From the NCBI GenBank assembly GCA_037176725.1, contig JAZBRS010000014.1, positions 71,034,501-71,098,500 of the forward strand: a DNA stretch of 64,000 bases, written 5' to 3'. The translations under genes and the position numbers were made by a program. The notes beneath the pieces were generated by a model, which made no database searches, had not been told where the DNA came from, and saw only the letters and a program-made list of their open reading frames with translations. Below, piece after piece: positions 12,745-40,944 of this stretch. Each line of letters starts with the position of its first letter. Position 1 is the stretch's first letter. This DNA comes from Posidonia oceanica (taxonomy: Eukaryota; Streptophyta; Magnoliopsida; Alismatales; Posidoniaceae).

Positions 12745-12748
12745 CTTC

Positions 12749-18466: not shown

Positions 18467-18792
18467 GATGTGTCGTCTGGTGTTCGCAGTGGTTGCGGCG
18501 GATGGTGCGCGAACTCAAGGCGAGAGTTCAGTCCTCGGCTTCGTAGTTCTAAGGTAGCATCACCTTGAATGGAAGGGATGCAGGGTTGTAGCAGATGGTC
18601 TGTTCTGATGGGTTAGTCGCCTCTTCATTAGACGACTAAGCTAGTCGCCGGTTGTTAGGCGACGCACGATCTCCTGGCTTATTTAGTTCAGAAATCGTTT
18701 TAAGCCCTGATTCTTTTGATAAGGGGAGATAAAGGACGGTCGTCCTTGCTTTTCAGGAAGCATTCTGCACAAGTAAACCCCTTATCTTGATC

Positions 18793-19091
18793 ATGAAGCT
18801 TCCTTCCTTTTCTTCTTCGACCTTCCAAGTGAAGAGGGTGGTTGATATCTCCAACCATTTGATGAAAGCCATCCGGGATGACCAGGTATGTTCTCCTCTT
18901 TGTCCCTTTTTGTCTTTGCATGCTTCTCTTTGTGGTTTTGCCTCTGAATGTTGCTTGTTTAGGCCATAGTGAACCTCACGGGATGCCTGGACTTCCACAA
19001 TTCTTTCCGATATACTCTGCCGTGGGTGGCCGGCTTGATCAATCGAGTAGAGGATAACAAGCATCTCTTCGGGTGTAGTGGTTTCGACAAG
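18793..19091 (+). pseudogene. PMD-1, 5' exons (split by element A)
   Basis: An ATG at 18793 opens a 31-codon exon ending at 18885. A 77-bp T-rich intron (GTATGT at 18886 to TTTAG at 18962) follows. Exon 2 starts at 18963 and stays open to 19091, where element A inserts after the host bases ACAAG. The reading frame resumes without a shift at 31101 on the far side of A. The N-terminal exon is Ser/Phe/Lys-rich; exon 2 leads into the segment before the PMD core. The ATG was chosen because the following codons and the intron phase fit the rest of the gene. It lies antisense to C1 pol, so its own promoter or an antisense transcript would be needed for expression. Confidence 0.7.
19087..19091. other. 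Target-site duplication of A, left copy (ACAAG)
   Basis: ACAAG directly precedes the LTR start TGTAGACACC. The identical five bases follow the 3' LTR end at 31096-31100. They belong to the interrupted PMD-1 codons. Confidence 0.9.
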
Positions 19092-20248
19092 TGTAGACAC
19101 CCCATTCTGACAGCCTGGAAGATGGTGGATTCTCCTGTAGACTTGCTTGGACTCTGGAATGGCTCTCTTTTCAAACTAACCCATTTCCACCCCAAAACCA
19201 AACCTAAAACCCTACCTAAACCTCAAAACCCTCAACCTAAGCCTTTTGCACCTTTTCAACCCTTTTTAAGCCAAAGCCCAAGCCCATTTCAGCCTTTGGC
19301 CTCCTGGGCATGTTGAACGCTGGCACGAGCAACGTCCAATGTTGGACGCGCTCTATGCTAGCGTCCAACATTGGACGCGCTCTGCACCAGCGTCCAACGG
19401 CTTGGGAGTTGCAGCGGCTACTCCGCCACCTTTGGCTCACCTCCCGTCCACTCCACTGCTCGCACACACTTACTACCCATCTCCTCACCTCACTACAGCC
19501 ACCCACTAGCCTCCAAGAGCGAGTAACTGCCCTGCCAGGCCGTTTACTCCTCCCCAGCGCCTCTCCCGCTCACTCCACCTCTCACTGCCACCGCCGCTAG
19601 ATTCTCTGCCACCAGCGACTTCGACGACCACCTCCTGCCAGCCCATGCCCTCTCTTGCCATGCCTCGTGGCCTCCCCTCACCCAGCAAGCCTGCCATGCC
19701 TCTGCCAAGACCTGCCAAAGCCTCTGCAACCTCGGCCTCCACCCATGAACCCAACACAAAACCACTCCAAACAGCCACCTTCTCGACGAGGCACAACACA
19801 CCACAGCCATTCTCTCCACAATTCAACCACTCTGAGAGCTCCAGAAAACTCCCACGACCCTCTCGAGCATCCAGCAGCTTCCCTCGAGCCTCCCTCGCGC
19901 CAAGCAAGCTCGCCGGAGTAGCCTCGCCGCCATCTTCCTTAACGCCGGCCACAACAGCAAACACCGCTTCTGGGCCGCAACCAGGTAAGCATTTCATCCC
20001 CTTAGCTAGCACACACACCTAGTAGCATGCTAGGATAATTAATTCGCACGCACGCTTCCTCGGTTGGCCGGAAAAGCCCTAGCCGCCAGCCGCAAGGAGG
20101 AGGAGGTGGGTGGAGCAATCCACCCACCCATTTCTGGCGCCGAGCATACCAACATGCTCGTCGTCACTCCCTCTTGCTTCCTAGCAAGTTGGTTGGCGAT
20201 TTTTGGCCACCTTGGCCATTGATTCGTGGCTGGGATCTTTCTCGACCT

Positions 20249-21480
20249 GTTGGACGCACTGCTTGGTGCATCCAACGTTGGACACACCATGTGCTGGCGT
20301 CCAACACCCTGCATGCATGCCTGCCCCTTTTTTGCTAGCCTTGCTCCTATTTTGCTATAGTTTGGTTGCTTTCTCTTATGCGTGATTGTTTCAAGCTTGC
20401 TTCCATGCCTTTAGATGCCATGCCATGCTTAGTATAATTCTTTGATCTTTAGTTTAAATCCATGCTTAAGATCTGCCTTGCTGTCTGTGTTGGACGTGGG
20501 TGTGTCTTGCGTCCTATGTTGGACGCAGGTATGCTCTACGTCCAATGCCTCTGTTAGCTTCTGCATGCTTTTAAATGCTTGAATGTTGCAATTATTTCTG
20601 TTACATGCTTATTCTGTGTTGCATGCCTTGATCTATCTTGCTCTCAGTAGTTTGCATGCCTATTTTAGTGGGTTTTTGAGCTTAGCTCCCCATTTGCAGT
20701 TTAGTTTGCATGCTTCTAGTGTTGGACACAGGTGTACTCTGCGTCCTATATTGGACGTAGATATGCTCTGCGTCCTATGCTTCTGTTCAGTAGCTTTGCT
20801 TGAATGCTTCCATGCTACTCTGATGTTTTATCTTGGCTATGATCCATGCTTGCGTGAGTGTGCTTGGCCTTCTTAGCAACTGCTCCTAGGCTTTTATGGC
20901 TTTTTATCTGGGATCTATGTGGATTTATCCAGGTTTGTTCCTTCCTCTATGTTGGACACAACCTTCGCTGGCGTCCAGTATTGGACGCTGATGTTTCTTG
21001 CGTCCAACACACAGGTTGTGTCTCTGTGCTTGCATGCTTTATAAATGCTTTACCTTTTGGACTTTTATGTGATCCTATGCTTGCATGTTCAGCCTATTCC
21101 TGCTTACAGTAGCCTAAATGCATGCTTACATATTTTGTTCATCATCTGTATGCTGATTTGCTATGCTGTCCTTTGGCCTGTGTTGGACGCCAGTCTCTCT
21201 GGCGTCTAACATTGGACGCCATGCCATCGGGCGTCCAACACCCTGCTTGTTTAAATGCTGATCTTTGCTTGCATCTTGCTCTGAATCTGCTTTTGACTTA
21301 CTGCCCTGTTTGCTCTGCATGCCCTGCACCCATTCTCTTGCATTTCTGCACCTGCATCGCATCCATATAGCTAGAATGCATCTTTTTTTCAAAAATTGCA
21401 TGTTGTTTGCCTCCAGCAGGTGTTGGACGCCAGCAATGGCAGCGTCCAACGTTGGACGCAGCTATTGCTGCGTCCAACGC
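20249..21480 (+). repeat. GTTGGACGC palindrome array in A LTR
   Basis: Six clusters of about 60 bp starting at 20249, 20488, 20720, 20950, 21181 and 21421, spaced 230-240 bp. Each cluster has the order GTTGGACGC, gap, GCGTCCAAC joined to GTTGGACGC, gap, GCGTCCAAC, so it can fold as two hairpins in a row or as one central palindrome. In the last cluster, GTTGGACGCAGC (21451-21462) pairs perfectly with GCTGCGTCCAAC (21467-21478) across a four-base loop. A related cluster lies at 19330-19400, with its counterpart in the 3' LTR at 30735-30805. Confidence 0.85.
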
Positions 21481-22039
21481 TTGCAGTTGGCTGAACCTGA
21501 TTTTAAAACGCCGATTTGGTTTCATTCGCCGTTTTCCGTGCTTTATCGCTTCTTATACATACTACTACCCCCATGCACGCTGCCTGTCCCCTTGTTTTGA
21601 TTTTGCACCTCGCCTTGCACGCTTTCCTGTGGTTTTCGCCTTGGACTCGCTTTTGCTTTCTCTTTTGCATATTGCTCGCTGCATCATTTTCCGCGCTTTT
21701 GCATCGTTTCCCGTGTTTGCATCGTTTTTCGTGCTTTTGCATTGTTTTTCGCACTCGCACCGTCTTCCGCGCCTGCTTTTGCTTTACCCCTTGCATGTCG
21801 CCTGCATTGCATAGCTTTCCCCGCAGTTTTGTTTTATCGCCTGCATTTGCATTAGGGCAATGATGCTTACTGCCTAGGAGTTCTCACGAACCAGGGTTCG
21901 CCCAATTCGGAACACTAGCAGTGCTGCTGAGCACATAAATAGTACGTTTATTTCCCATGCATAGCAATTAGACATTCATTGCATTTAGGCACTAGGCAAG
22001 CATCTACCTGCATTAGTGAGCGAGATTGCCTAAGAAAGA

Positions 22040-22115
22040 CCAACTCTCGGACGTATTGGGGGTGCCTAACACCTTCCCCGTGCGTAACAAGAGTCCTTGC
22101 CCTTTCTCTTGGCCC
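22040..22115 (+). promoter_or_regulatory. Conserved Tat LTR block (A)
   Basis: GGGGGTGCCTAACACCTTCC followed by CCGTGCGTAAC and AGTCCTTGCCC. The reverse complement occurs in the B LTR at 44710-44765 with few changes, although the surrounding LTR sequence is much less alike. Position near the 3' part of the LTR suggests the R/U5 region; the function is unknown. Confidence 0.6.
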
Positions 22116-22430
22116 GCAATGACCTTTCCTTCATCCTAGGCACGAGTCATAGCATAGCATAGCCTAGCATCGCATTGTGTTGCATCGCATGTCCTTGCAT
22201 CCGGTTTTGCATGTCTTTTCATGCATTACCCTCAGTTTTCCTTGTCTCCCAACTTAATAGACCTGGTGGCGACTCCGATTTGTCTTATCATTTCTTTTTC
22301 TTCTTTTTGCGAGTGTTTCCGAGCCAAGTTTCTTCCCTCGGATCCTGCCGCATATAGTGAGCCTATTTTGATCGATGCACGCGAGCTTTGGCATCGTGCA
22401 TGGACGATCAGAATTTTAGGATTACTATAG

Positions 22431-22447
22431 TGGCGACTCCACTGGGG
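22431..22447 (+). promoter_or_regulatory. A primer-binding site
   Basis: TGGCGACTCCACTGGGG starts two bases after the 5' LTR end. This is the form of site usual in Tat/Ogre-type elements, generally assigned to tRNA-Arg; the assignment is from memory of the family. Confidence 0.8.
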
Positions 22448-23584
22448 AGATGGGAATCATCAGCGGATATTCCACTGAAGATTCTAGACTTCGGCTTTCG
22501 TCTTGGCCTTCTCGCCGCTTGCTTTTGTGCTTTGCTTGCCTTATGCTTCTGCTTGCCTTGCTTGCTTACCTACCTGCTTGTTTATTTACTTGCTTTATGC
22601 CATGATTGCTTGCGTTGCTTTATTTTCCTACATCACATGCCTAAATACTTGCTTGGCGCACTATGCATGCTTTTTGTGTGATATGTGTTTTGTTTTACAC
22701 AAATACTATGTCACCATGCACGCACATGCCATGCATACTTGCTTTTTGATATGATAAGTGCTTTCTCTTCACTATCATGTCCACATACACTTGCACATGC
22801 CATGTCCATGCTTTTTGCCTTGCTGTGTGAATCGCTTGCATGCCATGACTTCTTGTTTCTCTCCCATTCGCATATGCCATGCCTAGGATAGTAGAAACTT
22901 GCTTGCTTCCCTCTTGTTTAATCTAAAAGCCACAATAAAGCGAAGCAACAGCATCTAAGCACAATTAGAGTCAAAACTTGCAATTTTTTCCCCTTGGTTA
23001 AATAAAACGCAAGTAAAACGCTCTAAAGCATTCGCATCAACATCTTAGAAAGCATGCATTCTTCTCATCTGAGTCAACCCACAGTCTGAGAAGGACGGTC
23101 CCGGCCTCTTGCCCCACTGCTTTGGCATGGCGCAAGTCAGTCGGTCTGTCCCCCTTGTCCAGGGGTCGCGTCGGTGCTATTGGAGGGTACCACCCGTGCT
23201 TCTAGCAGGGTCGAGGCCACCAATACACCACCCGTTATACCTGAGCTTTGGCAGGGTCAAGACGAGAGCCTTATTTTCTGACCTGGAGTCTGCATAATCC
23301 CATTACCCCTGAGTGCGTCCTGGTAGGTCATCTACTCAGGACATGCATGGTGAGAGAGTGCATATTAGGGCATTTATCTGCATCATGCCACCCCTAATAA
23401 CTCTTTTTTGCATCCAACCTCTGACGTGTTTATTGGTTTTGCAGGTAGGTGCGGGTTCCTTCAGCTAGGATCCTGAGCGTCCCTCTCTGTCTCTAAGCTG
23501 TCTGTCGCCTCCGACAATAGCCCGCCTTAGGTCTTGTGTCCCTACCTTCAGCCGCAAACCTGTTTGCTTTCGCTCGCCGTCTGC
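22448..23584 (+). mobile_element. A 5' leader, non-coding
   Basis: About 1.1 kb rich in CTTGCTTGC and CATGC motifs, without a credible ORF. It would hold the packaging signal, but none can be recognised by eye. Confidence 0.6.
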
Positions 23585-26069
23585 ATGGCCCAGCATACCA
23601 ACGAGCCCTCTTCCTCTTTAGCATCAGGGGAGATACCAACTTCGGTCTCTCCTTCCCCTGCTTTGGCGTCCCCCGTCTTCTCTCCACTTCTGGTACAGGA
23701 GACTTCCCAGCCCCTTTATCCGGATCAAGGGTCGACCCCAGTTGACCTGGAGCTTGTCACCAAGTCTGCCGCGGTGACCGCCACTCGGGCTCCAGGAGCG
23801 TCGCCTTCTGTTCCATCCCAAGGCCTTCCCGTCTCGGGAATCTAGCCTTCTGCGGCTGCCTCTTGTGTAGGATCCACCCCTATCGCTTCCTTGGTTTCCA
23901 CGCCTCCTCTAGCAAACACCTCTTTGCGTCCTGGCCCGTCGGTCGATGCTTTCTCTGCCTCGCAAGCGCAGCGTTTATTGGCTAAAACCGATAGGCTGCG
24001 AAGCATGGCTCTCGCACTTGACCCGACTGTGGTCTGCTCTTCCCGCCCAACCCCTGAGGTTCCGGTGCCGCCCTCTGTAGCCCTGCAGGCGCACTACACT
24101 GCACCTCCGCCCTTTCCATCACCCCAGCTCCTCACAACTCCAACGATAGGGGCACATTATCGGCCTCCTGCACCTGCACAGCACTTTGCATAGCATGCAA
24201 CTCCTTCCTTTGGTGGCTAGTCTTCTGGATTGGCAAGAGCACATCACCCCTCAGGCCCGTTGCCCGACACCGTGCCAGTGCAACAGTTGTTGCTCCCCTG
24301 CACTGCACCTTACACTGCACAGCATATTATCTATCCATCTTCTTTGCATCAGGTTCAGGCTCCTGCATACATAGCACCGCACTTTGCACCCTCGCACGGG
24401 TATGCTAGCCCTCACGCTACGACACCAGGTGGTGTGATGGTGGATCCGGAGGAGCGCTCTCGCGTGACCCGCACAGCATACGTGGTCCCTGCCTCTGTTG
24501 CACAACCATCACCAGCAGCAGCCTCAGATGCCCTCCTCGCCAGGTTGGGCGATCTAGAGAGAGCACTTCGTCAAGTGCAAGGTAAGGACCACCAGTCTTA
24601 CTAGTTTCGCGACCTCTGTCTCTTTCCCAAGGCCGCACTCCCTTCGAAGTTCCGTATCCCAGACTTCGATAAATATAATGGTAGAGGCTGCCTCATCTCG
24701 CATCTGAAGGCATACTACGGGGACCTTGCTCAGCTTTAGGCTGATGAAAGGCTCCTTATCCGCCTGTTCCAAAAGAGTTTGACTAGCCCCGCGCTCAGGT
24801 GGTTCACGTCCCTTGACATGGCTGCGGTTCAAACTTGGACTGGTCTTTCTCGGGCTTTCCTTGAGCAATATGCTTTCAACCTCAACTTGATCTCCAAGAG
24901 GGAGGATCTCGTCGCCATCCGACAGAGGCTCCAAGAGCCATTCGGGGAGTATGTCGGTCGCTAGCGCTCCACAGCCGCCCAGGTCAGGGATAGACCCTCC
25001 GAGGAGGATTCTATCGAGATGATCGTCAAAGGGACGCTGCCAGCGACTGGGACTCTGCTTTGCATCCAGCACATCACTAGTTTTGCATCGCTGATTAAGG
25101 CTGGCGCCCGCATGGAAAGCTCACTGCAAAGTGGGCATTTCTCCGCACTTTCTGCATTGGCTAGGCAGGCCAACAACACCAGCAATCGTTGCAGCAGCAA
25201 CAGCAGCAACAACTCCGCTTCCGACTGCCCCGAGCAGCACGCCGTCGCATGTGCTGATCCTCCTAAAGTGCCTGCCTTTACAGAAAGTCAGTCGGACCCT
25301 TTTCTGCTAGTGCACGCACCTATTTATGCACCCACTGCACACACTGTCACTGTTGAGCCGGTGCATCACGTCGCACCAGCTCAGCAAGGACAACAGCCTA
25401 AGCAGAGACGAGTCCGCTGCACTAAGAGTGACTTCACCCCACTTGGTGAACCGCTAAGCGCCGTCTTTCCCCAGGTTGTGTCGCTTCTGAGGCTCCCGGA
25501 AACTCGCCCGTCACCAAATCCTCTTCCAAGATGGTACGATGCGAGCAAGTATTGCGATTACCATCGAGCCACGGGGCATTCGACGGATAATTGCCTCACT
25601 CTCTAGGATGTCGTTCAGGACTTGATTGACAACGGAACCCTCGTCGTCAATCCGCAGGAGGCTGCTCATACACCTGCACTTGCACTCGCACACCCTAGCA
25701 TAGCTGGCCCTTCCTCTTCTGAGCCTGCGGGCTTTGAGGATGCCAGAACCTCAGGGGCTTACCCCAATCTTCTTTGAATCCAGCTCTGCCCCGATAGGTC
25801 CTTCCATTCCCATCGGCGCAATCCCCTCTTCGTATCTCTCCCTGTTTGCCCAGGGGACGCTCGGAAGCGCAACGGCAAAATCGACAGCAAGCCCAGTCGC
25901 AACACCATCCAGGTTAGCTTCTCCTCCAACATCAATAGCCCTAGTGCTCCCCGCATTGCCATCAGCAGATCCAACAGCCCCAATGCTCCCGGCACTGCTA
26001 ACAGTGGATCTCGCCGATAGCCTCAGCAGCGTAGGGGCAGACCCAGCACCTCCCACCCGAGGTCGCTGA
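23585..26069 (+). pseudogene. A gag pseudogene (Tat-type Gag)
   Basis: ATG at 23585 opens one frame that can be followed to about 25775, broken by seven stops, all TAG: 23843, 24191, 24218, 24602, 24737, 24962 and 25604. A frameshift then moves the Ala/Pro-rich tail (to 26069) to another frame. The capsid core (24602-25130) parallels the B Gag, with matching RLFQKSLT, AFLEQY and FGEYVGR motifs, and the knuckle CDYHRATGHSTDNC lies at about 25552-25593. The order is Ser/Pro-rich head, core, Gln/Ser linker, CHHC knuckle, Ala/Pro tail, then a stop. No protease follows, unlike B, where Gag and protease share a frame. It would supply or use particles; this copy cannot make full-length protein. Confidence 0.9.
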
Positions 26070-26224
26070 CAGGTAAGTCCCTCTTACCTCTCTTTTCTTT
26101 CCTGCACTGTCTTTTCTTTTCATTTTATTTTTTTTTTGTGTTTTCTTGCCATGTCAGAAAATCATAAAAAGCATAAAAACAGCAAAAACCCTAAAAACTT
26201 GCATTTTGTCCTGCATGCATCTAT

Positions 26225-26725
26225 CATTTGAGCTGATACCCCTAACTATTCAGCGATAGGTCCGTTAACCTATCATCACTGGACTGGCAGCCCTAATTGC
26301 TTGGCGATAAGTCCGTCAACTTATCATTTGGGCTGATACCCCTAACTATTCGGCGATAGGTCCGTTAACCTATCATCTGGGTTGGCAGCCCTAACTGCTC
26401 GGCGATAAGTCTGTCAACTTATCATTTGGGCTGATACCCCTAACTATTCGGCGATAGGTCCGTTAACCTATCATCTGGGCTGGCAGCCCTAACTGCTCGG
26501 CGATAAGTCCGCCAACTTATCATTTGGGCTGATACCCCTAACTATTCGGCGATAGATCCATTAACCTATCAACACTAGGCTGGCAGCCCTAACTGCTCGA
26601 CTATAAGTCCGTCAACTTATCATTTGGGCTGATACCCCTAACTATTCGGCGATAGGTCCGTTAATCTATCATCATTGGGCTGATATCCCTAACTATTCGG
26701 CTATAAGTCCGTCAACTTATCACTT
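26225..26725 (+). repeat. Dimeric double-hairpin module array (A)
   Basis: About five 98-bp dimers. One half has GGGCTGATACCCCTAACTAT and a hairpin GATAGG / CCTATC around TCCGTTAA (26255-26274). The other half has GGCTGGCAGCCCTAACTGC and GATAAG / CTTATC around TCCGTCAA (26306-26325). The two halves alternate, so the stem type swaps with every unit. Confidence 0.9.
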
Positions 26726-28144
26726 GCACATATCAATCACTTTGCATGCATATCAACCATCTTGCACATATCTATCATCATGCATTGTCATTTATTGCAT
26801 GTACATATCATTTCTTGCATCTTGTAAAGCATAAAGCCAAAAAAAAATTAAGAAAATAAAAAACAGTAAAAATATTTTCTTCGCCTTTCTACTGGTTTTC
26901 CCTTTTATGTTTTCCTAAACAAAAATCATAAAAATACAAAACCAATGCAAAACCCAAAATCATGTTTGTCCTTTCCCTTGCTAAAATATACAAAACCCAT
27001 ACACATTTGTATAATCAGAAACCGGCTTTGGACAAACAAGCAGCGCCTAGAGGATGTCAAGCAGTGACGATCCCAGGCAGGTCTCACCCGAGCGGTGCCA
27101 TCTCTTGCATGTGGCTACAGAGTGAGACCAGAGCAGAACAGAGCGTCTCGCTGAGCCCAATGCTCCCAAAGCGAGATCCACCATAACCAAAGAGTCCACC
27201 AGACATGGAGAGGACCAAAGCAGAGCAGAGCATAGCCAGGGGCTATCGACATGCCGAGGGCGTACGCCGATCAGCCGAACTCTCAATGCCTCACCTGGGA
27301 CCGCTACCCCAAGAGGGCGAAGTCATGCATATCCAAAAGAATATAGATCATGTGAGCAAAAAGAAATGATAACATGATATGCGTGCTGAGCACAAAAGAA
27401 GAATGCAGAAAGAAGTTGAAGAAAGAAGGCGCTCATGAGAGGAGTGACTCGGACAAGCGTCGAAGTCCCCTCAGCTTTCAGCTCCAAGTGCCACACTGGC
27501 AACTACACGGGATGCATTATCAGGAGGACCTGGCCCCACCCTCTGAGTGCAGCAACATGCTCCAATCTCCTCTGCAGACATCTCTACTCTCTTGGCAGGC
27601 TAGATGCAACTCCAGTCACTCATGAGGGGAAAAGAAAGATCTATACTGTGAGCATTAAAAGCGGTAGTCGGTCCCCGAAGAATTGAGACGGAGGCTAAGA
27701 AGCTGCATCCAACGCTTCTGCTACCTTGCAGCCAAAGGCTATACTCTGCAAAGCCAATGCCTCATCCCAAGCCAAGAGTGAGAAAGAGAGCCACCGACCA
27801 CAACTCGGCATGGCGTCACTCGAGGATCGAGTCTCCTGAGTCAGGAATTGCAGAAGCATCCTCATGGCACAGTTGCTTTGAGTCCAAAGCCACCAAAACA
27901 TGTATGCTATAATATATCTTTATCTTCCCTTCTCCCTATTTTCGAAAATCGGAGCCAAGGACGAGCACTTTTGCCTGCCTCGCTCAGAGGCTCCGCGCTT
28001 TTCAAATTTTGCCACCCACCGCATGGGCAGGTCCATGACAACCGGCATGTCCCTCGTTTGTCACCTCGTGATGCCACGAAGCATGCCCGTGCTGAGACCA
28101 TTGCACGCCTATCACGATGGGTTCCTGTTTCATTTCTGCATCCG

Positions 28145-28860
28145 GGCTGGCAGCCCTAACTACTTGGCGATGGGTCCGTCAACCTATCATTTATCATTTC
28201 TACATCCAGGCTGGCAACCCTAACGGCTCGGCGATGGGTCCGTTAACCTAACACTCCGCATTCCTCTGCATCGGGTTGGTAGCCCTAACTACTCGGTTGA
28301 CGCCCGTTAAAATGTCATCCCACATATCTGCATTGCATTCAGGCTGATATCCCCAACTATTCGGCGATAAGTCCGTTAACTTATCACCCTGCATTTGCAT
28401 TATTCCATTGCATCCCCCACCGTCATTGCACTTTGCACGGTGAGCCCTTACGTCCATTTCACTGCATTCGGGCTGGTAGCCCTAACTACTCGGCTGACAA
28501 ACCCGTTAGTGTTGTCTCCACCATGCATTTTGATGCTGCCCCATGGTATCCCATCTCCATCTGCATTTGGGTTGACATCCCTAACTGTTACGGGAGCGTC
28601 TACGGACCTCTGCCACACCATCGGGTATGGTATTCCCATTGCATTCGTGGTTACAAGTTACCCCCCCTTGTAATCACCCCTCTTGCCTGACAGACTCGCA
28701 GGCCTGTCACCATCCGCAGGCTGATAGCCCTAACTATCCGGTGATGAGTCTATTAACTCCTTGTGGGCTGATAGCCCCAACTATCCGGTGATGAGTCCGT
28801 TAACTCCTCGCGGACTGATAGCCCTAATTATCCTGCAATAGGTCCATTAACCTATCACCC
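28145..28860 (+). repeat. Mixed hairpin modules (A)
   Basis: About nine dispersed modules of the same plan. Examples: GTAG / CTAC around CCCTAA at 28279-28292, followed by TGACG / TGTCA around CCCGTTAAAA; and GATAG / CTATC around CCCTAA near 28722. Stem sequences differ between modules while the loops stay. Confidence 0.75.
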
Positions 28861-29999
28861 ATTTCATCTTAGTGTAATAGCATTTTGTTGCATCGCATTA
28901 GCATTTCATCATCTCACGGACATCGCACAACTAGGATTGTTTTCCCAGTTTCGCGTGCCCGGTGTTCCACTGTTTGTACACTGCATTTCACAGCATTCGC
29001 ATTACATAGCATCATATAGCTTCTTTGTATGCCTTGTAGAGTCAGTCCTACTACTGCATCTCATCATTACATGGACATCGCGTGCTTAGGATTCGAACCA
29101 TAGGTTCACGTATTGCCTAAGGCAGCATCCTCGTTGCCCACATGCTTCTTTTTATAGCATTGCCAGCTTGGGATGATGCTCACAGTAGTGCGTGGCCCAG
29201 GATCGCTTTCTCAGTTTGGCGTGCCCGACGTTCCGTTGCATATCCTGCATCCCACTGCTTAACACTGCATAACATTGCATCCTTATTGTGCTGCCACTCC
29301 TCTATGGTCCTTACGCCAACTTCCGCATTCCGCTTTCCCGGGCATTTTCGTACCCACCATTGCATGCACATCCCCTATTTTACTTTTAGCATCTTTACTT
29401 TCAGCTTTACTCCATGCACTTGCATTGCCATTCGTCTACAGCCGAGCTTTGCAAATGGCACCCTCGTCGCTTGGCCTACTTGCATTGGCCAGTGACAGCA
29501 TTGTATTGCATTTCCACTTTTCCACGTGCATGCACCATCCCGCTTTCCCCCAGAGGAGTGCAGCGCAGTAAGCGTTAGCGTAAGCATACCATTTGCATTA
29601 GCACAGCATTCTAGTGTTTGCATTCATCTGCATTTGCATTCACCCTCCTGCATTGCTTAGGGCATCCTTTGCATTGCATTGTCCTTCCCACCTTTTTGCC
29701 TGCTTGCTGCCTCGACCAGAGGCAAGCATTTTCTCCTTCTCGTGGCCTTGCGAGCTCCTGCTTGTTTCTCTTGTCCCGAACAAACAAGAACCTTTGGTCT
29801 CCCCCGGACTAGCGGCCAACCTGCCCGAGTGGCAAGCACGTTAGTCCTTCCAGAGCCGCTTTTGCGCAAGTTTGGACAAGCAGCCAACTTGTTGTGTTGC
29901 ATCGTAGAACCTTCTGCTTCTCCTCGCTTCAGCATGCATCACACTGCACTACCCTAGCATTCCCCGTTTGGTGGCTGCATTCGCAGCACCGGCACTCAC

Positions 30000-30340
30000 A
30001 GCATTAGCACTAGCACTCACAGCACTAGCACCAGCACTCACAGCATTAGCGCCCGCACTCACAAGCATAGCAAGCACTCACAACAAGCATTAGCACACGC
30101 AGCATAGCAAGCACCCACAGCATCAGCATCAGCACTAGCACCAGCACTCACCATGCATCAGCATAGCATCTCCTCATGCACAGCACCCGCACATGCATTA
30201 GTTCATATTAGTTCAACATCAGCATTCGCATCGCACACTAGTTCTGCATTAGCATCTGCATTAACATCTGCACTAGCTTCTGCATTAGCATGCATTGCAT
30301 CGCATTAGCATCTTGCATCTGCATTCGCATTGTGGCATCA
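30000..30340 (+). repeat. GCATTAGCAC low-complexity repeat
   Basis: Degenerate 10-18-bp repeats of AGCACTAGCACTCACAGC and, later, GCATTAGCATCTGCATT. Compositional; no structure recognised. Confidence 0.7.
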
Positions 30341-30466
30341 AGTCATGATTTCCGATGCATCCGCTAGATAAGTGACTCACACCAATAGCAATTTGCGCTC
30401 CTGCCGGCATCAGGTAAGGTGTCTTGTCTACCCTGAGCAGCGGTCTCACTACGCTTGACCTCGCTC

Positions 30467-30479
30467 AGTGAGGGGCATC
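30467..30479 (+). promoter_or_regulatory. A polypurine tract
   Basis: CAGTGAGGGGCATC immediately before TGTAGACACC; one interruption compared with AGGGAGGGGCATC in B. Confidence 0.8.
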
Positions 30480-31095
30480 TGTAGACACCCCATTTTGACA
30501 ACCTGGAAGATGGTGGTTTCTCCTGCAGACTTGCTTGGACTTTGGGATGGCTCTCTTTTCAAACTAACCCATTTTCCACCCCCAAACCAAACCTAAAACC
30601 CTACCTAAACCTAAAACCCTACCTAAACCCCAAAACCCTCAACCTAAGCCTTTTGCACCTTTTTAACCTTTTTAAGCCAAAGCCCAAGCCCATTTCAACC
30701 TTTGGCCTCCTGGGCATGTTGAACGCTAGCACGGGCAGCGTCCAACGTTGGACGCGATCTGTGCTAGTGTCCAACGTTGGACGAGCTCTACACCAGCGTC
30801 CAACGGCTTGAGAGTTGCAGCGGCTGCTTCGCCACCTTTGGCTCACCTCCCGTCCACTCCACCGCCCGCACACACTTACTACCCATCTCCTCACCTCACT
30901 ACAGCCACCCACTAGCCTCCAAGAGCGAGTAACTGCCCTGCCAGGCCGTCTACTCCTCCCCAGCGCCTCTCCCGCTCACTCCACCTCTCACTGCCACCGC
31001 CGTTGGATTCTCTGCCACCAGCGACTTCGGCGACCACCTCCTACCAGCCCACGCCCTCGCCTGCCATGCCTTGTAGTAATTTCAGGATTACTACA
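30480..31095 (+). mobile_element. A 3' LTR, internally deleted (616 bp)
   Basis: The first 590 bp match the 5' LTR start and the last about 20 bp match its end (AATTTCAGGATTACTACA against AATTTTAGGATTACTATA). The 2.7 kb between the equivalents of about 19670 and 22410 are missing. Because terminus and target duplication are intact, the deletion is internal and probably happened after insertion or during reverse transcription. Confidence 0.85.
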
Positions 31096-31100
31096 ACAAG
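31096..31100. other. Target-site duplication of A, right copy (ACAAG)
   Basis: Identical to 19087-19091; directly after the LTR terminus TACTACA. Confidence 0.9.
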
Positions 31101-32171: not shown

Positions 32172-32845
32172 TTTTAGGATTAGTTAATGAAGATATTATG
32201 TTTTTGTTTTAAATTTTAATTTTAAGTTGAGTTGAATCATGTTTTAGTTTTTGAGTTTTTAAGTTTGGGCTGAATTATGTTTTAGTTTTTAAGTTGAAGT
32301 TCGAGTTGTATTATGTCTTAGTTTTTTTTAAGTCGTGTTATGTCGCTTGTTAATGTATAAGTTTGTATTAGAGGGAAATTAAAGGAAGAAACTGCTCTGC
32401 CCTCATCAGTCGCCACCTTCCGGAGCGCCTAGGAGCCATGCCCGCCAGCTTTTAAAGCGGAGCGGCAAGTTGCCGCCTTTGGGCTCAGTCGCCGTGGTTC
32501 GCGGCACCTAGTGCTGATGCGGTTTTCCAGAATGTTCAAAAGTACAAGACGGGAAAGTCGACGCGCGAAGAAGCTGAAGGGTCAGTTGCCTGTTGCGGAG
32601 GCGTCTGAGCGAGTCGCCGCTTTGCTTGGCGACCAGGGTGCGAGTCCAGTAGCAAAATTGGACCGTTGCCCCCCTTTTTTCAGACCTTCAAACCTTCTCC
32701 CCTCCTTCATTTTTCTTCTCCACCTCTCCTCTCCTTCGGGGATTCTCCCTTCATCCAGCGGCGTCTTCCGGCGGTGCAGCGGCGCAATCCGGCGAGCTCC
32801 AGCGGTGCGGGTGGTGGCGATCTTCTTCCCCCTTCCTCCTCCCTG
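32172..32845 (+). promoter_or_regulatory. PMD-1/PMD-2 intergenic region
   Basis: About 670 bp. The first half has T-rich TTTTAGTTTTTAAGTT repeats, which may contain the PMD-1 end. The second half (32395-32640) is GC-richer with four AGTCGCC-type units and should hold the PMD-2 promoter and 5' UTR. No clear TATA box was found. Confidence 0.45.
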
Positions 32846-35800
32846 ATGAGCGATAGAGAGGGAGACGGCGCGGGTGGTGACCCTCTTCCCCCTTCCTCCT
32901 CCCTGATGAGCGACAGAGAGGGAGACAGCGACAGCGAAGGTGGCAGTGCGGGCGGTGGCGCCGGCGGTGGTGACAGTGGCGCAGGCGTTCGGTCTCGTTG
33001 GAGACAGAGGTAGGCCTTTCCTTCCCTTTCTCTTATTTGGGTTGTTAATTTTAGGTTTTGGAATTATCATGGAAATTTTAAGTTTAATTGAGGAAATTTA
33101 ATTTAGGTATATGAAAATTTGATGTTTAATTTCAATTATTTTAATTTGAGTTTTAGTTTAATGAATTCAATTTTAGTTTAGTTTAATGAATTCTGTTTTT
33201 AGTTTAATTAAAAATTTTTAATTCGGTTTATAGTTAGGTTCATTATAGAAATTTTAATTTCAGTTTATGATGTAAATTTAGATTTTATGTAAATGGGAAT
33301 GGAAATTCATATTTTAATTGTGGAAATTTAATTTCAGTTAGTGTAATTTTAATTTCAGTTATTTAGTTTAGTTTTAACTTCAGTTTTAGTTTAGTTTAAT
33401 GAATTCAGTTTTTAGTTTAATAAAAAAATTTTTAATTCGGTTTATAGTTAAGTTTATGGAAAATCTGAACATTTTGAGTTTTAATTGTGGAAATTTGGAC
33501 TGTTTGGTTTAAGTTTTAATTCAGTTCAGTTATTTAATTCAGTTATTTAAAGTTATGTTTTAAATGTTAAATTTCTGATGTGAATGTGAAAGGGAAATGG
33601 AAATTTTGATGTAAATGTGAAAGGGAAATGGAAATTTTTATGTGAATGTGAAATGTGAATGGAATTTTTGATGTGAATGTGAAATGGACATGGAAATTTT
33701 TGATGTGAACGTGAAATGTGAATGAAAATCCATTTTTATGGAGATTGGAATGTTTATTTAGTCATTTTTGTGCATGTTGTTGATTTGCAGGAAAATGAAA
33801 AAAAAAATTAGTTGAAATTATAGGGGAGGTTATAGCGAATTTTTCCTAGAAATTTAAGAGATTAAATTAATAATTCTCTTTTTAATTTGAGGAGTTAATT
33901 TCTAAATTAAAATGTGGGTGGAATAAATTATTTAATGGATTAATTTGGAATTAAGAAATTGATTAAGGATTTTTGAAGTTAGTGATGGATTCATTTAAAA
34001 TAAAAGGATTAATTTGAGTTGAGAATTGAAAGTTGAATCTTAAGGTTTAGAGACTTTTGGGTTTTAAGGTTCGAATTTAAAGTTTGAATTTTTAAAGATG
34101 GATTTTAAAGATGGATTTTAAAGATGGATTTTAAGGTTGAATTTTAAAGTTGAATTTTAAAGTTGAACTTTAAAGATTAATTCCAAAGAAATAGACTTTA
34201 AGAGTTTTAATTTTAAGGATTAATTTTAAGAGTTTTAATTTAAAGGGGTTAACTTTAAGGGTATTAGTTTTGAGGAAGGACTTTAAAGATTAATTTCAAA
34301 GAGATTAACTTTTAAAGAGACTAGTTTTGAGGAAGAATTTTAGGGATTAATTTTTAAGGGTTGATTTTAAAGATAAACTTTCGTAGTTGGGTTCGAATGA
34401 AGCTTATGTCTTAAATGGTTTACATGCTTCGTTACTTAATCAAAGAGTTAGCATTAATGTGACTTTTAATGGTTGACGCTAATTTAAACATTAAGGTAAT
34501 TTTCCTCATTAAACAAAGCGGCAATGGTTCACATTAATTGGGCAAAGAGTTAGGTGATTAAGGTTTTCACTGGTTAATTAAGATGAAGAGTTTAAGCTTT
34601 AATTGGTTTTAACTATAGTTTAAGAATTAAGTTTTAATTAGTTAATGTCTAGGGTGGTTAATGATTAGTGGTTAGGATTTTGGAAGATTAATGCTTTAAT
34701 GATTTGGAAGATTAGGGAGATTATTGTTTAATTTAGCCCTGACTGACCAAACTCTACTCGTGCCGTTGTTTCAGGGTCTCTAACGAGGAGGCTGAGACGG
34801 GGAGGGGCGAGGCCGGTCCTTCCACTACGGAGGCGAGCTCCTCTTGTCCTCACAAGCTCCGGATGAGGCATCCACGTGCGCCGTCTCCTGTCTAGCTTGA
34901 GACTGGTGGCAGTGACAGGGACGACTCTGGTTCAAGTGCGGTCCCTCCACCTTCTAGGAGAGCTCGTACAACAGCAGAGCTTGCAGAGCTAGGCCAGGTG
35001 AGGTTACTTCATGTGTTTTTAGCTTTTATTCAGTTGTTAATGTTTTTTAATGTTTTCTTTTATGTCAGATGCCATTGCCGAGCTGGGCGCGCTCCAGCTG
35101 GGAGGACTTGCATGAGACGTATATCAATCTCTCAGAGTTTCAGCGGGTGAGACTTGCGAGGATGGGCTTCGGCCATTTCTTGGAGATCATGCCCTTTGAG
35201 ATCCACCTCGGACTCCTGGTCTCCTTTGCAGAGAGGTTCAACAGCAGTTCTGGCAGCTTCATTCTTCGTGTGGGTGAGATGATGATTACCTTGGAGGACG
35301 TAGTTCGGCTGGTGGGCCTGAGGGTTAACGGAGAGCCCGTGGTGGCGGTTTTGCAGCCTGACTATGGCAATGAGCTGGAGACCTGTTATGGTGTGCGACC
35401 TCCCCCTTCTGGTCTCTACCATACGCGTGTCAACGTCAAATGGCTGAAGGACCGACTGGATGACCTTCTTCTTGCTAACGAGGTGACTCCGAACATAGCG
35501 GATCAGCAGCTCCGGGCCTTCTTGTCTATTCTGTTTCATAAACTCTTCTTCGACACGTCTTCATAGATGCTTCATACCGGTTTTGCCCCTCTCCTTCTAT
35601 GTGTGGAGAGGATCGATACATATTCCTGGGTTTCAACCGTGTTGGTCTACTTGATCTCCCGGCTAGAGGCCTTTGCTGTGGGCCAAACCCACTCTCTCTC
35701 GGGTTGTCTGCCCCTTTTCCAAGTTCGTGCTTTATTTATTTGCCTACCTTTTGTTTAGTTGCCTACTTCAGACTTGGAACTGTTTCTTTGTGTGACAGAC

Positions 35801-37617
35801 CTAGATTTTTTAGCACTTCGTGTACCTTCGATCTGTAGTCCCAGGAGATGGCCCCGTCGAGTTTCCTCGAGCACGACGGTGGAGTGACATGTAGTTGGCT
35901 CCGGAACGACTTCGCCCTATGAGACATCTGGGCCGCTTCCTGTTAGAGATCCTCCCAGAGGAGTGGGTAAGTTTCAGTGTTTAGACCCTTCTTTCCCTAC
36001 ACAGTTTGTTGGTTTCTGACTGAGTTGTGCTTGCAGGTTGTCTGGAGACCCTACTCTGAGGACGAGCATGCCGTTGAGGAGCCCGTGGTGCACGGTTCCC
36101 ACTTATTTTTCCTGGAGTGTTGGCTCTTTAGCCTCTTCCAGTGCTACTACAGCCAGGTGGGCCGTGTCATGCGACAGTTTGGCCTTCGGCAGGTTGTCCG
36201 AGTGTCTGGTCCTATGGATTGTTCTCTAGGATCTACTAGGGGAGGTCGGACTGATGCTCCTCAGCGGTTTACAAAGCAGCTCAAGAACTGGCGCTCGGGT
36301 GGCACAACACCCCTTTCTAATGGTTCAGTAGAGACGGAGGCGGCGTGGAGGACCTGGTTTGATTCTAAGTTTGGTCATCTGATTGTCTTCCACCGTACTG
36401 TCTTTTTTGGTCGCTCCAACGTACCGATGGGCATTGGTCCTGGTGCGAGTGCTAGTGACCTTCAGTGGGAGTTGGCGACTGCTAACAGCCGCATTGATGA
36501 GCTGGTAAGCAACTCCCTTTGGTGTTCTTTCATTTTACCGCTTATTTACTTGTTCATTTGCTTACACATCTCCCTTGTTTGCACAGATGGATGCTTCAGA
36601 GGGGATGACTGAGGCGTTCAGGACTCAGCAGCAACAGCACTCCTTGAGAGTCACAGAGTTAGTACGGGAGAGGGACGAGCTCTTGTCCCAGATGGACGAG
36701 CTTCGAGCACGAGTGAGTCTCGTTTCGTCTTTTCAGTTGTTTGTGCCTATTTCTGCTTGTTTAACTATTGTCTTTGCTTTGATATAGGCCAAGGGTGCCT
36801 CGACAAGTGCAGAGCCTGCCCTTGCTGCCACCACAGGCCTAGCTGCTTCCCGTGCTGAGGGCATACTTGCTGAAGAGGTCCAGGCTCGTGATTCAGAGGT
36901 ACTACCGCACTTTTCTTGCTTTAAGTACTTGTAAATACCTGTCCTCTAACTCATATAGTTTCATTGTGCAGATTCAGGCGATGATGGATTTGATCCACAC
37001 ACCTCCAGCCACCGGTCCCACTCAGAGCCAGCTAGACGATGCCTTGGGGCGTGCTGAGGAGCTACAGGGGCATCTCAGTCAGGTGGAGCGAGAGCGTGAC
37101 AGTCGCATCCAGGAGTTAGAGGCCCTTGTGGCTGCATCTGACGCAGCCATGGCTAGGGTTCAGTTTGAGGCTTCCTCCATGTGAAGGGTACTTCTGTTCT
37201 GCTTTGATACTTTAGTTGTAGCTAGTCTTTCTACCTTTCTTGCTGATAAACTGCTTTGACTCTATGGTTTGCTGTTTCTTGTTGCAATTGAGTGACTTTC
37301 GAGCACAGCAGCTGTGGGACATGGAGGCACGACTGATGCAGACGGAGATGGCAGTCGCGACAGTTCTTCCCGGTTCTAATATAGCTGGTCTGATGCTTGC
37401 CCCTGTTGCTGCAACTCCTGCGGGGTCAAGGCATTCTAGGGCTCTGACGGCTGAGCAGATTACGAGAGCACGATCTTCTCCTCATCTTGAGATGGTTCGC
37501 TCTATACTGAGAGCGTCTCGAGAGAGGACCCAGAGTGGGGCGGCGTCTTCAGTTGCACAGCCTATGCTGGGGCCTCCAGATGGTGGACGTAGGGGTAACA
37601 GCGAGTCTGGCCACTGA
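32846..37617 (+). pseudogene. PMD-2, nine-exon plant-mobile-domain gene
   Basis: Exons I can phase: 32846-33009, 34775-34997, 35069-about 35720, about 35790-35966, 36037-36504, 36587-36712, 36788-36898, 36972-about 37180 and about 37293-37617. Most introns have clean GT...AG ends and keep the frame. The N-terminus is Gly/Asp/Ser-rich with a 60-bp direct duplication (MSDREGD twice). Exon 3 holds the PMD core: an ERF segment, then GEMMITLEDVVRLVGLRVNG near residues 195-215. Exons 6-9 encode a charged, Gln/Glu/Arg-rich segment likely to be coiled coil. TAG stops occur in exon 2 (34872 region), at 35564-35566 and in exon 4 (about 35892), with a probable frameshift in exon 4 and a weak last acceptor. 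It resembles plant PMD (MAIN/MAIL-like) proteins. It lies antisense to C1 pol. Confidence 0.7.
33010..34774 (+). other. PMD-2 intron 1
   Basis: 1765 bp, strongly A/T-rich, from GTAGGC at 33010 to TTGTTTCAG at 34774. It splits an AGG codon in a way that restores the frame. It contains degenerate TTTAATTTCAGTT and TTTTAAAGATGGA repeats and no ORF. Confidence 0.65.
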
Positions 37618-39059
37618 GTTTGTACCTTTCTTTTGTTTCTGTCAGAGTCTGTACTTTTCTTTTGCCAGAGTCTGTACTTGTAAAGATGTGAATATTCATA
37701 TGAAATGTTTTCTACTTTGTTTACCTGTACATGCTTACTTTTCTTGTTAGTAATCACGAAGCGTACCTTCCTTGGCGAAAGATTTGGTTAAGTTGATTAA
37801 TTAATCAAAGAGAAGATATGTTAAATGAAAAAGGTTCAAGCTAAGTTAATTAACTAACAAGAGGACAAAAATGTTAATGCTAAGATAGCATGCTTATTTT
37901 AAAATGGGTGGAGGGAATTAATTTCTGGCCTCAGCTAAAGAGATGGAAATCAGAGCCCAATAGACGCTGCTTGTGAGTCATCCGTGGTTGCTCTAAAGAT
38001 CATTATGTGAGTAATGTCTTTGCTGAGAAAGCGCACCCAAGCCATGAGACACGCTTGAGTAGGACGCTAACTCTGAATCCTAGTGAGTTGATGGTTGCAT
38101 CATTAGCCAGATTAATTCCAGTTTTCCTACTTACTAAGTTCTCACTTGTAGGTAAGTTAGATGTTTTGGTTTCTTGGTTTTTTTGTCTTTTTCTAGGTTT
38201 TGTAATATTTTTTTTTTTTGGTGTTTTGAGTTATGTGATTTTTTTTGGACTTTGGATTATGTGATTTTTTTTGGATTTTGGGGTTACGTGATTTTTTTGG
38301 ATTTTTGGGTTATGTGATTTTTGGATTTTAGGGTTGTATATTTTTTTGGATTTTTAATTTTTATAATGAGGAAAGATGAGTACCTACTTTAAGCATTAAC
38401 CTCGGAGTCTGTTTCAACCAAATGAGTGGGCCCTACATTCGTGGACATGTCCCTTGGGCCATGCCTGTACCTTTTAGAGACTTTGGTCCACATACTAGTC
38501 CTTACTTGGGTTGCTTTTCCCTAGGCCCTTTCAGTCCTGGACCACCTAAGGTTGCTTACTCCTTGCCTGTTAGTGGGAATAGGATAGGGGAGGTTTCGGG
38601 ATACAGTGAACTCTCGGTTTTGGCTTAGGCCTTGACTCCCGCTTGCCTTTCTTTGGTCCTTAATGCGTCTTTCTAGGGTTTATACTTTTAGATGCATAGA
38701 CAGCTTTTGCCATGCTCTTTTCCGCTCTTTGGACAGCTCTTTGCTGACCTCTTTTAGTTGGACAGTTTCTTTTACTGCCTCTTTTCGTTTGTTCCTCACT
38801 TGGACAACTTCTTTGCTGCCTTCTTTCCTCTCGGTTTGGACGGTTTTTGCCGCCGTCTTTTCTAGACGCTTTCTAGGTTACTTGACAAGCAGTTTGTATT
38901 CTAAGCCTCTACTCCGAGCCTACTTTTCCCTTACCTCCCCGTGTAGTGTGTATGTGGAGACAGGTCAAGGCATGGGTCCCCCCAGGTGTTCCTCTTCCTA
39001 CTGGCTTTGGGAATCTCTCCCCTTCTGGCTTGGTGTTAGGCCTAGGTCTTTTCAATGAT
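37618..39059 (-). mobile_element. C1 spacer between integrase and PMD cassette
   Basis: From about 37716 it aligns with 7220-8960 of C3. It includes the T-rich repeat TTATGTGATTTTTTTTGGA (38170-38360). No gene seen. 37618-37715 is probably the PMD-2 3' UTR. Confidence 0.65.
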
Positions 39060-40406: not shown

Positions 40407-40944
40407 CTATTCGGTGGCAGACTCCACTGTTGGTGCGCTGATTCTTCGCACCGTGATGGATTGCTTATCTGTCTCTAAGCTGAAGGGGAGCGAGGATGCC
40501 AGTGAGGCCAATGAATCGGCCAGGATGTTGTTGCTTCTAAGTACGTGCACATACATAACCCTGTCAAATTTCTTCAGTAAGGCTTTAGCTAGGTTTCCTA
40601 CAGCTTTGGCGAGAGGGTCTTGTATTTGTTGAGGACTTGCCGTATGACAAGCTGTGAGTCCCCAACTACTTTTAGTCTTCTTGCCCCTAGATCGAGAGCC
40701 ATTCGGAGCCCTAGATGAGTGCCTTGTATTCTGCAATGTTATTACTCACTGAGAAGAGTAGTTGGGCTGCAGTGGGGAGAACAATACCCACTGGAGTGAG
40801 GAGTGTTACCCCTATTCCGGCGCCCTGTGAATTAAGCACTCCATTGAAATGGAGGGTCCATTCTCTGATGAGTGGCATGACACTACTGATTGCCAGTATC
40901 TCCTCGTCTGGGAAATCTGTTGACACTGGCTGATATTCCGACAC
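40407..40944 (-). pseudogene. C1 second (archaeal-type) RNase H
   Basis: Two overlapping frames: 40944-40711 with the first Asp replaced (WTLHFNGVL where DG is usual) and NNIAEYKALI; and 40736-40407 with the NILADSLASLAS end motif. A stop after EYKALI and frameshifts separate them. A second RNase H domain between the Ty3-type RNase H and integrase is a mark of the Tat lineage. Asp-to-Asn at the first catalytic residue would abolish activity. Confidence 0.75.

Follow-up and report, generated by a model that had tools for sequence, protein, structure and literature searches.

Results

The C element carries two PMD genes on the strand opposite to pol

We analyzed a 64,000-nt window of Posidonia oceanica DNA (contig JAZBRS010000014.1, positions 71,034,501 to 71,098,500, forward strand) and scanned the 2.96 Gb genome for copies of its features. 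The window contains element C, whose pol is on the minus strand, and two PMD genes, PMD-1 and PMD-2, which are arranged head to tail on the plus strand within 18467-37715, between the integrase (INT) and the C 3′ end (Table 1). The PMD-bearing accessory region of C is about 10.4 kb, with the nested element B excluded. Through Pfam searches, RVT_1, RT_RNaseH, RT_RNaseH_2 and Integrase_H2C2 were found in C pol, all on the minus strand, and a second RNase H (aRH) segment was detected when the aRH/INT protein of E was used as a tblastn query. C therefore has an aRH besides RH, with INT downstream, the arrangement that defines the Tat clade; the ORF of E itself shows RVT_3 and rve. Only one LTR was seen for C; its edges are approximate, its terminal TG..CA is indistinct, and it seems to be common to C and the truncated element D on the left. 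A 5′ LTR of C was not found, and the C 5′ end was placed beyond more nested insertions, right of 72447 in window numbering.

Table 1. Features of the C element, its PMD genes and the neighbouring elements (window numbering)
Feature	Position	Strand	Basis or remark
Element A, C relative without pol or PMD cassette	4845..13203	-	blastn, alignment
LTR of C/A family, adjoins C 3′ region	16128..16716	-	blastn, 12605-13203 matches 16128-16715, 76%
C 3′ internal region, LTR to PMD-1 start	16717..18500	-	77.5% to A 5881-7127
PMD-1 exon 1	18793..18885	+	
PMD-1 intron, 77 bp	18886..18962	+	GT..AG; found in 2/2 other copies aligned
PMD-1 exon 2, 5′ part, broken by B insertion	18963..19091	+	TSD ACAAG 19087-19091
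Element B, Ogre-like LTR insertion within PMD-1, outside cassette	19092..31095	+	TSD ACAAG 19087-19091, 31096-31100
PMD-1 exon 2, 3′ part, ends at stop codon	31101..32171	+	Pfam PMD 4.1e-9 on joined protein
PMD-2 exon 1	32846..33009	+	
PMD-2 exon 2	34775..34997	+	includes alignment of copies
PMD-2 exon 3, PMD domain begins	35069..35722	+	Pfam 3.8e-17; dN/dS 0.31
PMD-2 exon 4	35799..35966	+	acceptor 35798, not 35813; 12-copy alignment
PMD-2 exon 5, PMD domain ends	36037..36504	+	Pfam; alignment
PMD-2 exon 6, post-domain tail	36587..36712	+	alignment
PMD-2 exon 7	36788..36898	+	alignment
PMD-2 exon 8, 3′ end uncertain	36972..~37177	+	
PMD-2 last exon, to stop codon	37309..37617	+	5′ end uncertain, candidates 37293-37312
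C region, INT to PMD-2 3′ end, shared with A-type elements	37747..38991	-	blastn A 7344-8308, 72-79%; alignment
C integrase, zinc-binding and core	39079..40580	-	Pfam Integrase_H2C2; tblastn with E aRH-INT
C second RNase H (aRH), Tat hallmark, degenerate	40601..40863	-	tblastn E aRH-INT residues 2-89, 50%
C reverse transcriptase and RNase H	40974..42311	-	Pfam RVT_1, RT_RNaseH_2; tblastn 57.6% to E
C gag/protease region, cut by E	42907..44417	-	G-patch under Pfam cut-off; 92.5% to D 13207-14176
Element E, inserted in C, continues to 72022	44419..64000	-	LTR pair 98.5%; TSD CCTTC

The ends and a PBS-like stretch of B were identified, and its LTRs (5′ about 19092-22430; 3′ 30480-31095, internally deleted) are 91% identical by blastn; its LTR and PBS features suggest an Ogre-like element. 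The insertion site of E is empty in element D. E lies outside the cassette and is a useful comparator, as it carries a sense PMD ORF (53454-54707, one in-frame stop; Pfam PMD on 53997-54707) that the alignment showed to be uninterrupted at the PMD-2 intron sites. In A, the sequences matching the two flanks of C are at most about 120 bp apart, and the PMD cassette is absent from all three A-type relatives seen (A, A2 and A3).

Gene models of PMD-1 and PMD-2

We re-derived the PMD-1 gene model and recovered the exon coordinates and the 77-bp intron of the original prediction. The joined PMD-1 comprises 431 codons with two internal stops, compared with a mean of 17.6 and a minimum of 7 in shuffled sequences (n = 1000), and matches Pfam PMD (PF10536) at 36.5 bits, barely above the cut-off of 34.9. 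Both in-frame stops are TAG, and the window copy is a pseudogene. The gap at 19092-31095 is not an intron but an LTR element with TSD ACAAG on both sides: PMD-1 is split because B inserted into it. The insertion site is empty in two other copies (L039 and L041), in which the C 3′ internal region is 87-89% identical.

For PMD-2, at least six frame-keeping GT...AG introns had been predicted, and our gene model has at least seven, of spliceosomal type; seven are clear, and there are probably eight in total. The spliced core gave one Pfam PMD match of 124 bits, whereas the unspliced sequence gave two pieces of 62.9 and 20.4 bits; moving the exon-4 acceptor accounted for a rise from 115.7 to 124 bits. 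A count by eye of the six short introns in 12 copies (the window and 11 others) gave GT at the start in 72 of 72 cases and AG at the end in 65 of 72. The introns contain 57-75% A+T and 40-56% T, the exons 43% A+T and 24.5% T (with the exon-4 start at 35814), and the length of six of the seven introns is not a multiple of 3. The window copy of PMD-2 is also a pseudogene, with five in-frame stops across exons 2-7, all TAG.

The PMD genes are repeated through the genome in a fixed geometry

A first look at the genome gave 19,144 candidates for PMD-2 exon 3 (query 35069-35563), 17,944 for PMD-1 (query 31341-31979) and 74,093 for INT. The best 150 of each were all near full length, with identities of 85-91% (apart from the window itself), 86-91% and 90-94%, respectively. 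Each PMD gene thus has at least 150 scored copies, spread over many contigs. Among these best-150 lists, PMD-1 and PMD-2 lying within 15 kb of each other were on the same strand in 11 of 11 pairs, PMD-2 and INT were on opposite strands in 17 of 17 (at 4.4-4.9 kb), and PMD-1 and INT were on opposite strands in 9 of 9; about 0.2 (0.23) neighbour pairs would be expected by chance in each case, and the window contributes one pair to each count. In both copies that were read in context (C44 and C30), the LTR is followed by the 3′ region, then PMD-1, then PMD-2 and then the INT side; C44 is broken within INT, C30 is without 40001-42578, and neither holds the whole pol.

All neighbour pairs found share one geometry of PMD-1, PMD-2 and INT, and the cassette is therefore a built-in antisense component of a repeated element rather than a locus of the host. 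PMD-1 and PMD-2 form one cassette that is repeated through the genome with the C element. The prediction of two PMD genes antisense to C pol inside a Tat retrotransposon was confirmed by Pfam, tblastn and this geometry, and that of a gene cassette carried by the element is supported, since the cassette has multiplied with the C family as one unit. Absence of the cassette from other C copies, combined with a host-gene setting, had been named as the contrary outcome; instead, the cassette was present in C44, in C30 and in all 17 PMD-2/INT pairs.

PMD-2 exon 3 is under purifying selection

We ran the dN/dS comparison across cassette copies proposed with the original prediction. PMD-2 exon 3, the first half of the PMD core, is under purifying selection, with a dN/dS of 0.31 (bootstrap 0.22-0.41) versus 0.83 and 0.84 in shifted frames. 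The copies compared had been selected for the resemblance of their protein to exon 3, and this may depress its dN. Constraint is unclear beyond this exon: exon 5 gave 0.51 versus 0.59-0.64, exon 2 gave 0.66 with a lower value in a wrong frame (0.38), and exon 7 gave 1.22. Over three copies, the ratio was 0.29-0.51 for PMD-1, where a shifted frame was lower in one of three pairs (0.46 vs 0.51), and 0.17-0.32 for INT, where one shifted-frame comparison was lower (0.21 vs 0.31). Exons 2-7 contain one or more in-frame stops in all 12 aligned PMD-2 copies, and some of these copies have indels. Many of the best 150 PMD-1 copies keep a stop-free open frame of 399 aa.

Discussion

An antisense accessory region with introns

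Introns are normally stripped by RNA-mediated retrotransposition. We consider it very likely that 18467-37715 represents the antisense accessory part of C, a much repeated Ty3/gypsy family of the Tat clade that bears pol; its PMD genes would be expressed after integration, and PMD-2 looks to have been captured as DNA. The PMD introns would persist because the genomic RNA would hold them as their reverse complement, which the spliceosome would leave in place during the retrotransposition cycle. After integration, a putative element-internal promoter would give a plus-strand transcript, from which the host spliceosome would then excise the introns, yielding one or two PMD proteins. The claim that the introns survive only because they are antisense was upheld in part: orientation explains them well, and the sense PMD of E reads through the same sites, but the exclusive wording is unproved, as these sites are also uninterrupted in a host-like PMD gene and in the part of PMD-1 that follows its single intron, and as Ogre elements retain one sense intron (PMC6317226). 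The further claim that the cassette is expressible only from its own promoters is an inference. Two PMD-2 introns match those of a MULE-borne PMD gene in position and phase (read by eye and then aligned), which suggests that PMD-2 derives from a PMD gene with introns and was captured as DNA.

The constant place and direction of the PMD genes in neighbouring copies suggest that the element uses them. The host PMD proteins MAIN and MAIL1 act in silencing, with PP7L. By analogy to them, the likeliest though still tentative role of the C proteins would be that of a nuclear accessory factor that lowers silencing of the element or tunes its transcription.

It is unlikely that the cassette is a passenger, that is, a DNA transposon or gene inserted into an ancestral C and multiplied unused while its PMD frames decay neutrally. 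The stops in every aligned PMD-2 copy, an apparently abundant PMD MULE with two same-place introns in this genome and A-type relatives that manage without the cassette would all fit this reading, whereas the exon 3 ratio against its shifted frames and the open PMD-1 frames do not. Pfam found no match to a Mutator-type transposase in the scanned window ORFs (part of 75 ORFs of at least 120 aa), which also speaks against a passenger; the inverted-repeat search covered 18300-19091 and 31101-38400 separately, so that a pair spanning B is undetectable by it.

We also regard as improbable that the antisense RNA matters rather than the proteins, with plus-strand transcription over the 3′ region giving dsRNA or siRNA by which the element is tuned or silenced. 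Such action of antisense transcription is proposed in a review (PMC7264820), and in tea phasiRNAs arise from PMD genes (PMC10673657), but an RNA function needs neither protein-level constraint in exon 3 nor introns that keep the frame. Still less likely is the view that the introns persist since the packaged genomic RNA is unspliced, orientation not being the cause. Its precedent is the Ogre sense intron between gag-pro and pol, described as spliced in only some transcripts (PMC6317226), but here at least seven introns with plant-like splice sites would all have to evade splicing together, and E's sense-oriented PMD is uninterrupted at the same sites. Finally, an ordinary host PMD locus with retrotransposon pieces merely on both sides, a reading prompted by the window copy's place among nested elements and by PMD genes that are also ordinary plant genes (PMC5418596), is refuted by the many copies, the uniform pair geometry and the LTR and 3′ region that adjoin the cassette in both fetched copies, and its probability is negligible.

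In retroviral vectors, intron-containing genes are carried backwards as a trick, and the C element would be a natural counterpart, since the seven or more introns of its accessory gene lie on the strand beyond the reach of genomic-RNA splicing. A possible, still speculative reading is that a multi-exon host-type gene has been kept antisense through RNA copying, that the PMD proteins form a post-integration programme, probably directed against MAIN/MAIL1 silencing, and that PMD passed from genes to Gypsy elements. As part of this reading, the introns shared with the MULE may indicate movement from an intron-containing (genic) ancestor into a Gypsy element, at least in this lineage; if true, the transfer bears on a question that Ikeda et al. 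2017 left open (PMC5418596). Several points become testable: expression of Tat antisense accessory genes as spliced mRNA, a search called for by a 2020 review; interference of element-encoded PMD proteins with the silencing pathway of the host's own PMD proteins; and, from shared intron positions, the direction of PMD movement between genes and retrotransposons.

Comparison with known systems

Ikeda 2017 (PMC5418596) describes the PMD-A1/A2 clades, whose proteins Gypsy retrotransposons encode throughout the angiosperms, and also MULEs that have captured a PMD gene, for which it cites Babu 2006; its main text has no match for "intron", "exon" or "orientation". Our own PMD tree had nine rows, long branches and no reference members. 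The MULE seen here (C62) has Mutator transposase domains and terminal inverted repeats, and its PMD shares 27% aa identity with PMD-2.

Like Ogre (Neumann 2019, PMC6317226), C belongs to the Tat clade, has an aRH between RH and INT, and carries PMD in an extra ORF, a feature that is frequent, not universal, in Ogre (57% of elements). Introns and orientation of the Ogre PMD ORFs are not given in the portion of that source used here, whereas those of C are antisense and intron-bearing; this genome also holds a second arrangement, that of E, whose sense PMD is uninterrupted where PMD-2 has its introns.

Retand, also of Tat (Vicient 2025, PMC11963269, in part), and C share a Tat-type pol, a long pol-to-3′ LTR region and a constant antisense coding region, and the antisense ORFs of C lie between pol and the 3′ LTR as in Retand. 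In Retand the usual antisense domain is TRP28 (PF04195), in a region of 2.9-6.6 kb, whereas the larger region of C holds two PMD genes, one of them with multiple introns; a Pfam search of PMD-1 and PMD-2 that admitted E-values up to 1 gave no TRP28 match, and "PMD" and "intron" have no occurrence in the main text of Vicient 2025. Maize Grande gene23, an antisense accessory gene between pol and the 3′ LTR that is transcribed from its own promoter, has a placement similar to that of the C genes; the section of PMC7264820 concerned does not call it a PMD gene, whereas the accessory genes of C belong to the PMD family. Tat elements with antisense ORFs and Gypsy elements with PMD domains were already known; the conserved multi-exon antisense PMD genes of C appear to add a new form to these.

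Organization of the antisense PMD genes in element C

The window, 64 kb at G000:C6:71034501-71098500, is made up of nested LTR elements. Two genes with a plant mobile domain (PMD, PF10536), here called the cassette, lie on the plus strand between the integrase (INT) and the 3' end of the minus-strand Tat-type element C, which is interrupted by the Ogre-like element B and by E. The two LTRs of E (~5.8 kb each) are 98.5% identical, and its two long pol frames of 493 and 576 codons are open in the window; E is a young element. Its target duplication is CCTTC, and the uninterrupted site was seen in the related element D. A tandem array (36-bp unit, ~29 copies) lies between the sense-oriented PMD and the 3' LTR of E. 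C and D belong to the same family (92-96% identity), and one LTR apparently serves both, a pattern that seems to be as after recombination between neighbouring elements.

Positions and strands of the features in the window
Feature	Position	Strand	Evidence or remark
C gag/protease	44417-42907	minus	Pfam
C RT-RH (reverse transcriptase, RNase H)	42311-40974	minus	Pfam, tblastn with element E
C second RNase H, degenerate	40863-40601	minus	tblastn with element E
C integrase	40580-39079	minus	Pfam, tblastn with element E
PMD-1	18793-19091, 31101-32171	plus	
PMD-2	32846-37617	plus	
B	19092-31095	plus	inserted in PMD-1, target duplication ACAAG
E	44419-72022 (past window end)	minus	inserted in C gag/protease region
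E sense PMD	53454-54707	minus	
E tandem array	51673-52717		
LTR shared by C and D	16128-16716		apparently serves C as 3' LTR and D as 5' LTR

Joined across B, PMD-1 has 431 codons, one intron of 77 bp and two internal stops, compared to a mean of 17.6 and a minimum of 7 in 1000 dinucleotide shuffles. Its match to the PMD profile was weak (36.5 bits), yet over the Pfam cut-off. For PMD-2, where at least six introns had been predicted, seven were clear and there is probably an eighth; they contain 40-56% T versus 24.5% in the exons, and T-rich introns are usual in plants. The first model, of 701 codons, had three stops, compared to a mean of 25.9 and a minimum of 13 in the shuffles. From the alignment of 12 copies, the exon 4 acceptor at 35813 was replaced by 35798, and the corrected gene has five stops in exons 2-7. 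Once spliced, the PMD core matched positions 1-322 of the 347 in the Pfam profile as a single hit of 124 bits, and the unspliced sequence gave two separate pieces of 62.9 and 20.4 bits. All seven in-frame stops counted in the two genes of the window read TAG, which may be left over from decay at methylated sites in silenced copies; TGA and TAA also occur in other copies.

The cassette is part of the element

Besides the window, we read two copies in context, on contigs C44 and C30. In both, the LTR, 3' region, PMD-1, PMD-2 and INT side follow in the order and orientation of the window, and B is absent, with 19091 joining 31096 by exactly the 5-bp overlap expected for an empty site. C44 is broken inside INT at 40308 and C30 lacks 40001-42578, with the gag/protease region present beyond the gap, so the whole pol was seen in neither copy.

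Searches of the 2.96-Gb genome returned 17,944 first-look matches for the PMD-1 piece, 19,144 for the PMD-2 exon piece and 74,093 for the INT piece, the last count possibly including other Tat families. The best 150 of each, which represent the best-scoring copies only, were all near full length and, with the window itself excluded, 85-94% identical to the window queries. Among these lists, pairs at most 15 kb apart showed no exception to the strand pattern: PMD-1 and PMD-2 were on the same strand with PMD-1 upstream (11/11, 3.4-6.8 kb apart), PMD-2 and INT were on opposite strands with INT 4.4-4.9 kb downstream (17/17), and PMD-1 and INT were likewise on opposite strands (9/9). About 0.23 pairs were expected by chance, and the window contributes one pair to each count. 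These results show that the cassette is part of C, as originally predicted for antisense PMD genes inside a Tat retrotransposon. The opposing case, a host locus merely flanked by retrotransposon pieces and missing from other C copies, is ruled out by the two context copies and the constant geometry.

The cassette could also be read as a DNA transposon in its own right that sits within C. After exons 3 and 4, PMD-2 has introns that share position and phase, as judged by eye, with those of a PMD gene of the same genome borne on a MULE, identified as such from its domains. Since the ORFs scanned held no transposase and the arrangement relative to INT does not vary, a DNA transposon is retained solely as a possible origin of the cassette, to which the shared introns may point.

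The top-scoring PMD matches looked into in the genome (contigs C62, C15, C28 and C75) were rejected as relatives: the first three are MULE copies with 26-28% identity to PMD-2 exon 3, and the fourth is a host-like gene. The latter (locus L023, G000:C75:7960001-7970000, 5008-7104, minus strand) has 698 codons and a PMD domain without introns (Pfam 1e-97), and is perhaps a host MAIN/MAIL-type gene. On C62 (G000:C62, ~0.36-1.86 Mb, L009-L012), PMD matches are spaced ~25.47 kb apart; two adjacent units are 99.2-99.6% identical over the stretches compared, and the one unit read through holds a MULE with transposase and PMD gene, adjoining a germin-like (cupin) gene. The protein database searches gave one match in total, a Rhododendron PMD protein (28% identity over 18% of the query), and there were zero matches in the viral contigs and in the solved structures searched. 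A PMD tree of 9 rows was too weak to place PMD-1 and PMD-2.

Introns and orientation

The intron alignment comprised 12 copies, the window plus 11, from 12 loci cut out for the best PMD-2 exon-piece matches (L027 is the window itself; the longer L039 and L041 stand in for L028 and L032). Read by eye, the six short PMD-2 introns start with GT in 72/72 cases and end with AG in 65/72. The PMD-1 intron, also predicted, is present in both further copies.

A sense PMD lies downstream of INT in each of the three E-type copies looked at, namely the window, L021 (tblastn) and L025 (DNA match), so sense and antisense arrangements both occur in Tat elements of one genome. According to the original prediction, the introns survive only because they are antisense, and would thereby escape the spliceosome while the element copies itself. 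In the alignment, the sense PMD of E is uninterrupted at the PMD-2 intron sites, which is consistent with such an escape. This is not proof, because the host-like gene L023 and PMD-1 are likewise uninterrupted at these sites.

Selection on the cassette

We pooled dN/dS of PMD-2 by exon over the 66 pairs of 12 copies. Exon 3 gave 0.31 (codon bootstrap 0.22-0.41) versus 0.83 and 0.84 in shifted frames, a constraint that may be inflated because the copies were picked by likeness to exon 3. The values were 0.37 for exon 4, 0.47 for exon 6, 1.22 for exon 7, 0.51 (0.36-0.71) for exon 5, not separable from its shifted frames (0.59 and 0.64), and 0.66 for exon 2, with a lower value of 0.38 in one shifted frame. 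For PMD-1 and INT of these copies, which were not themselves picked in this way, dN/dS was 0.29-0.51 (three pairs; shifted frames 0.46-0.81, one pair lowest in a shifted frame) and 0.17-0.32 (two segments, three pairs each), respectively. Of the 12 shifted-frame values for INT, 11 lay above the in-frame value for their own pair; the remaining one was 0.21 versus 0.31. The proposed comparison across copies therefore revealed clear constraint in exon 3 of PMD-2, and not in the remainder of the gene. All 12 PMD-2 copies have at least one in-frame stop in exons 2-7, which may be expected for old insertions.

Relatives without the cassette and comparison with known elements

In the three A-type elements looked at (A inside the window, A2 on its right-hand side and A3 on C15), we found no pol or PMD matches, and the two flanks of C lie close together (~120 bp apart in A). 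They appear to form a non-autonomous branch of the family, which would have either lost the cassette or never possessed it.

In published work, one survey of plant Gypsy consensuses found PMD to be their commonest extra domain (PMC9289625), two PMD clades are encoded by Gypsy elements (PMC5418596), and a 2020 review calls for a search for antisense and spliced transcripts (PMC7264820). No description of introns in antisense PMD genes was found in the literature listings and passages searched. Antisense accessory genes of Tat elements are already known; in C they are two PMD genes, with at least seven introns interrupting one of them, and form a cassette that a much repeated family has kept, with a putative role in the element. 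PMD is found in 57% of Ogre elements (PMC6317226), and C also carries it, on the antisense strand and with introns. In every potentially recently active Retand cluster surveyed, antisense coding regions occupy the stretch from pol to the 3' LTR (PMC11963269), and C likewise has such a region, there with two PMD genes.
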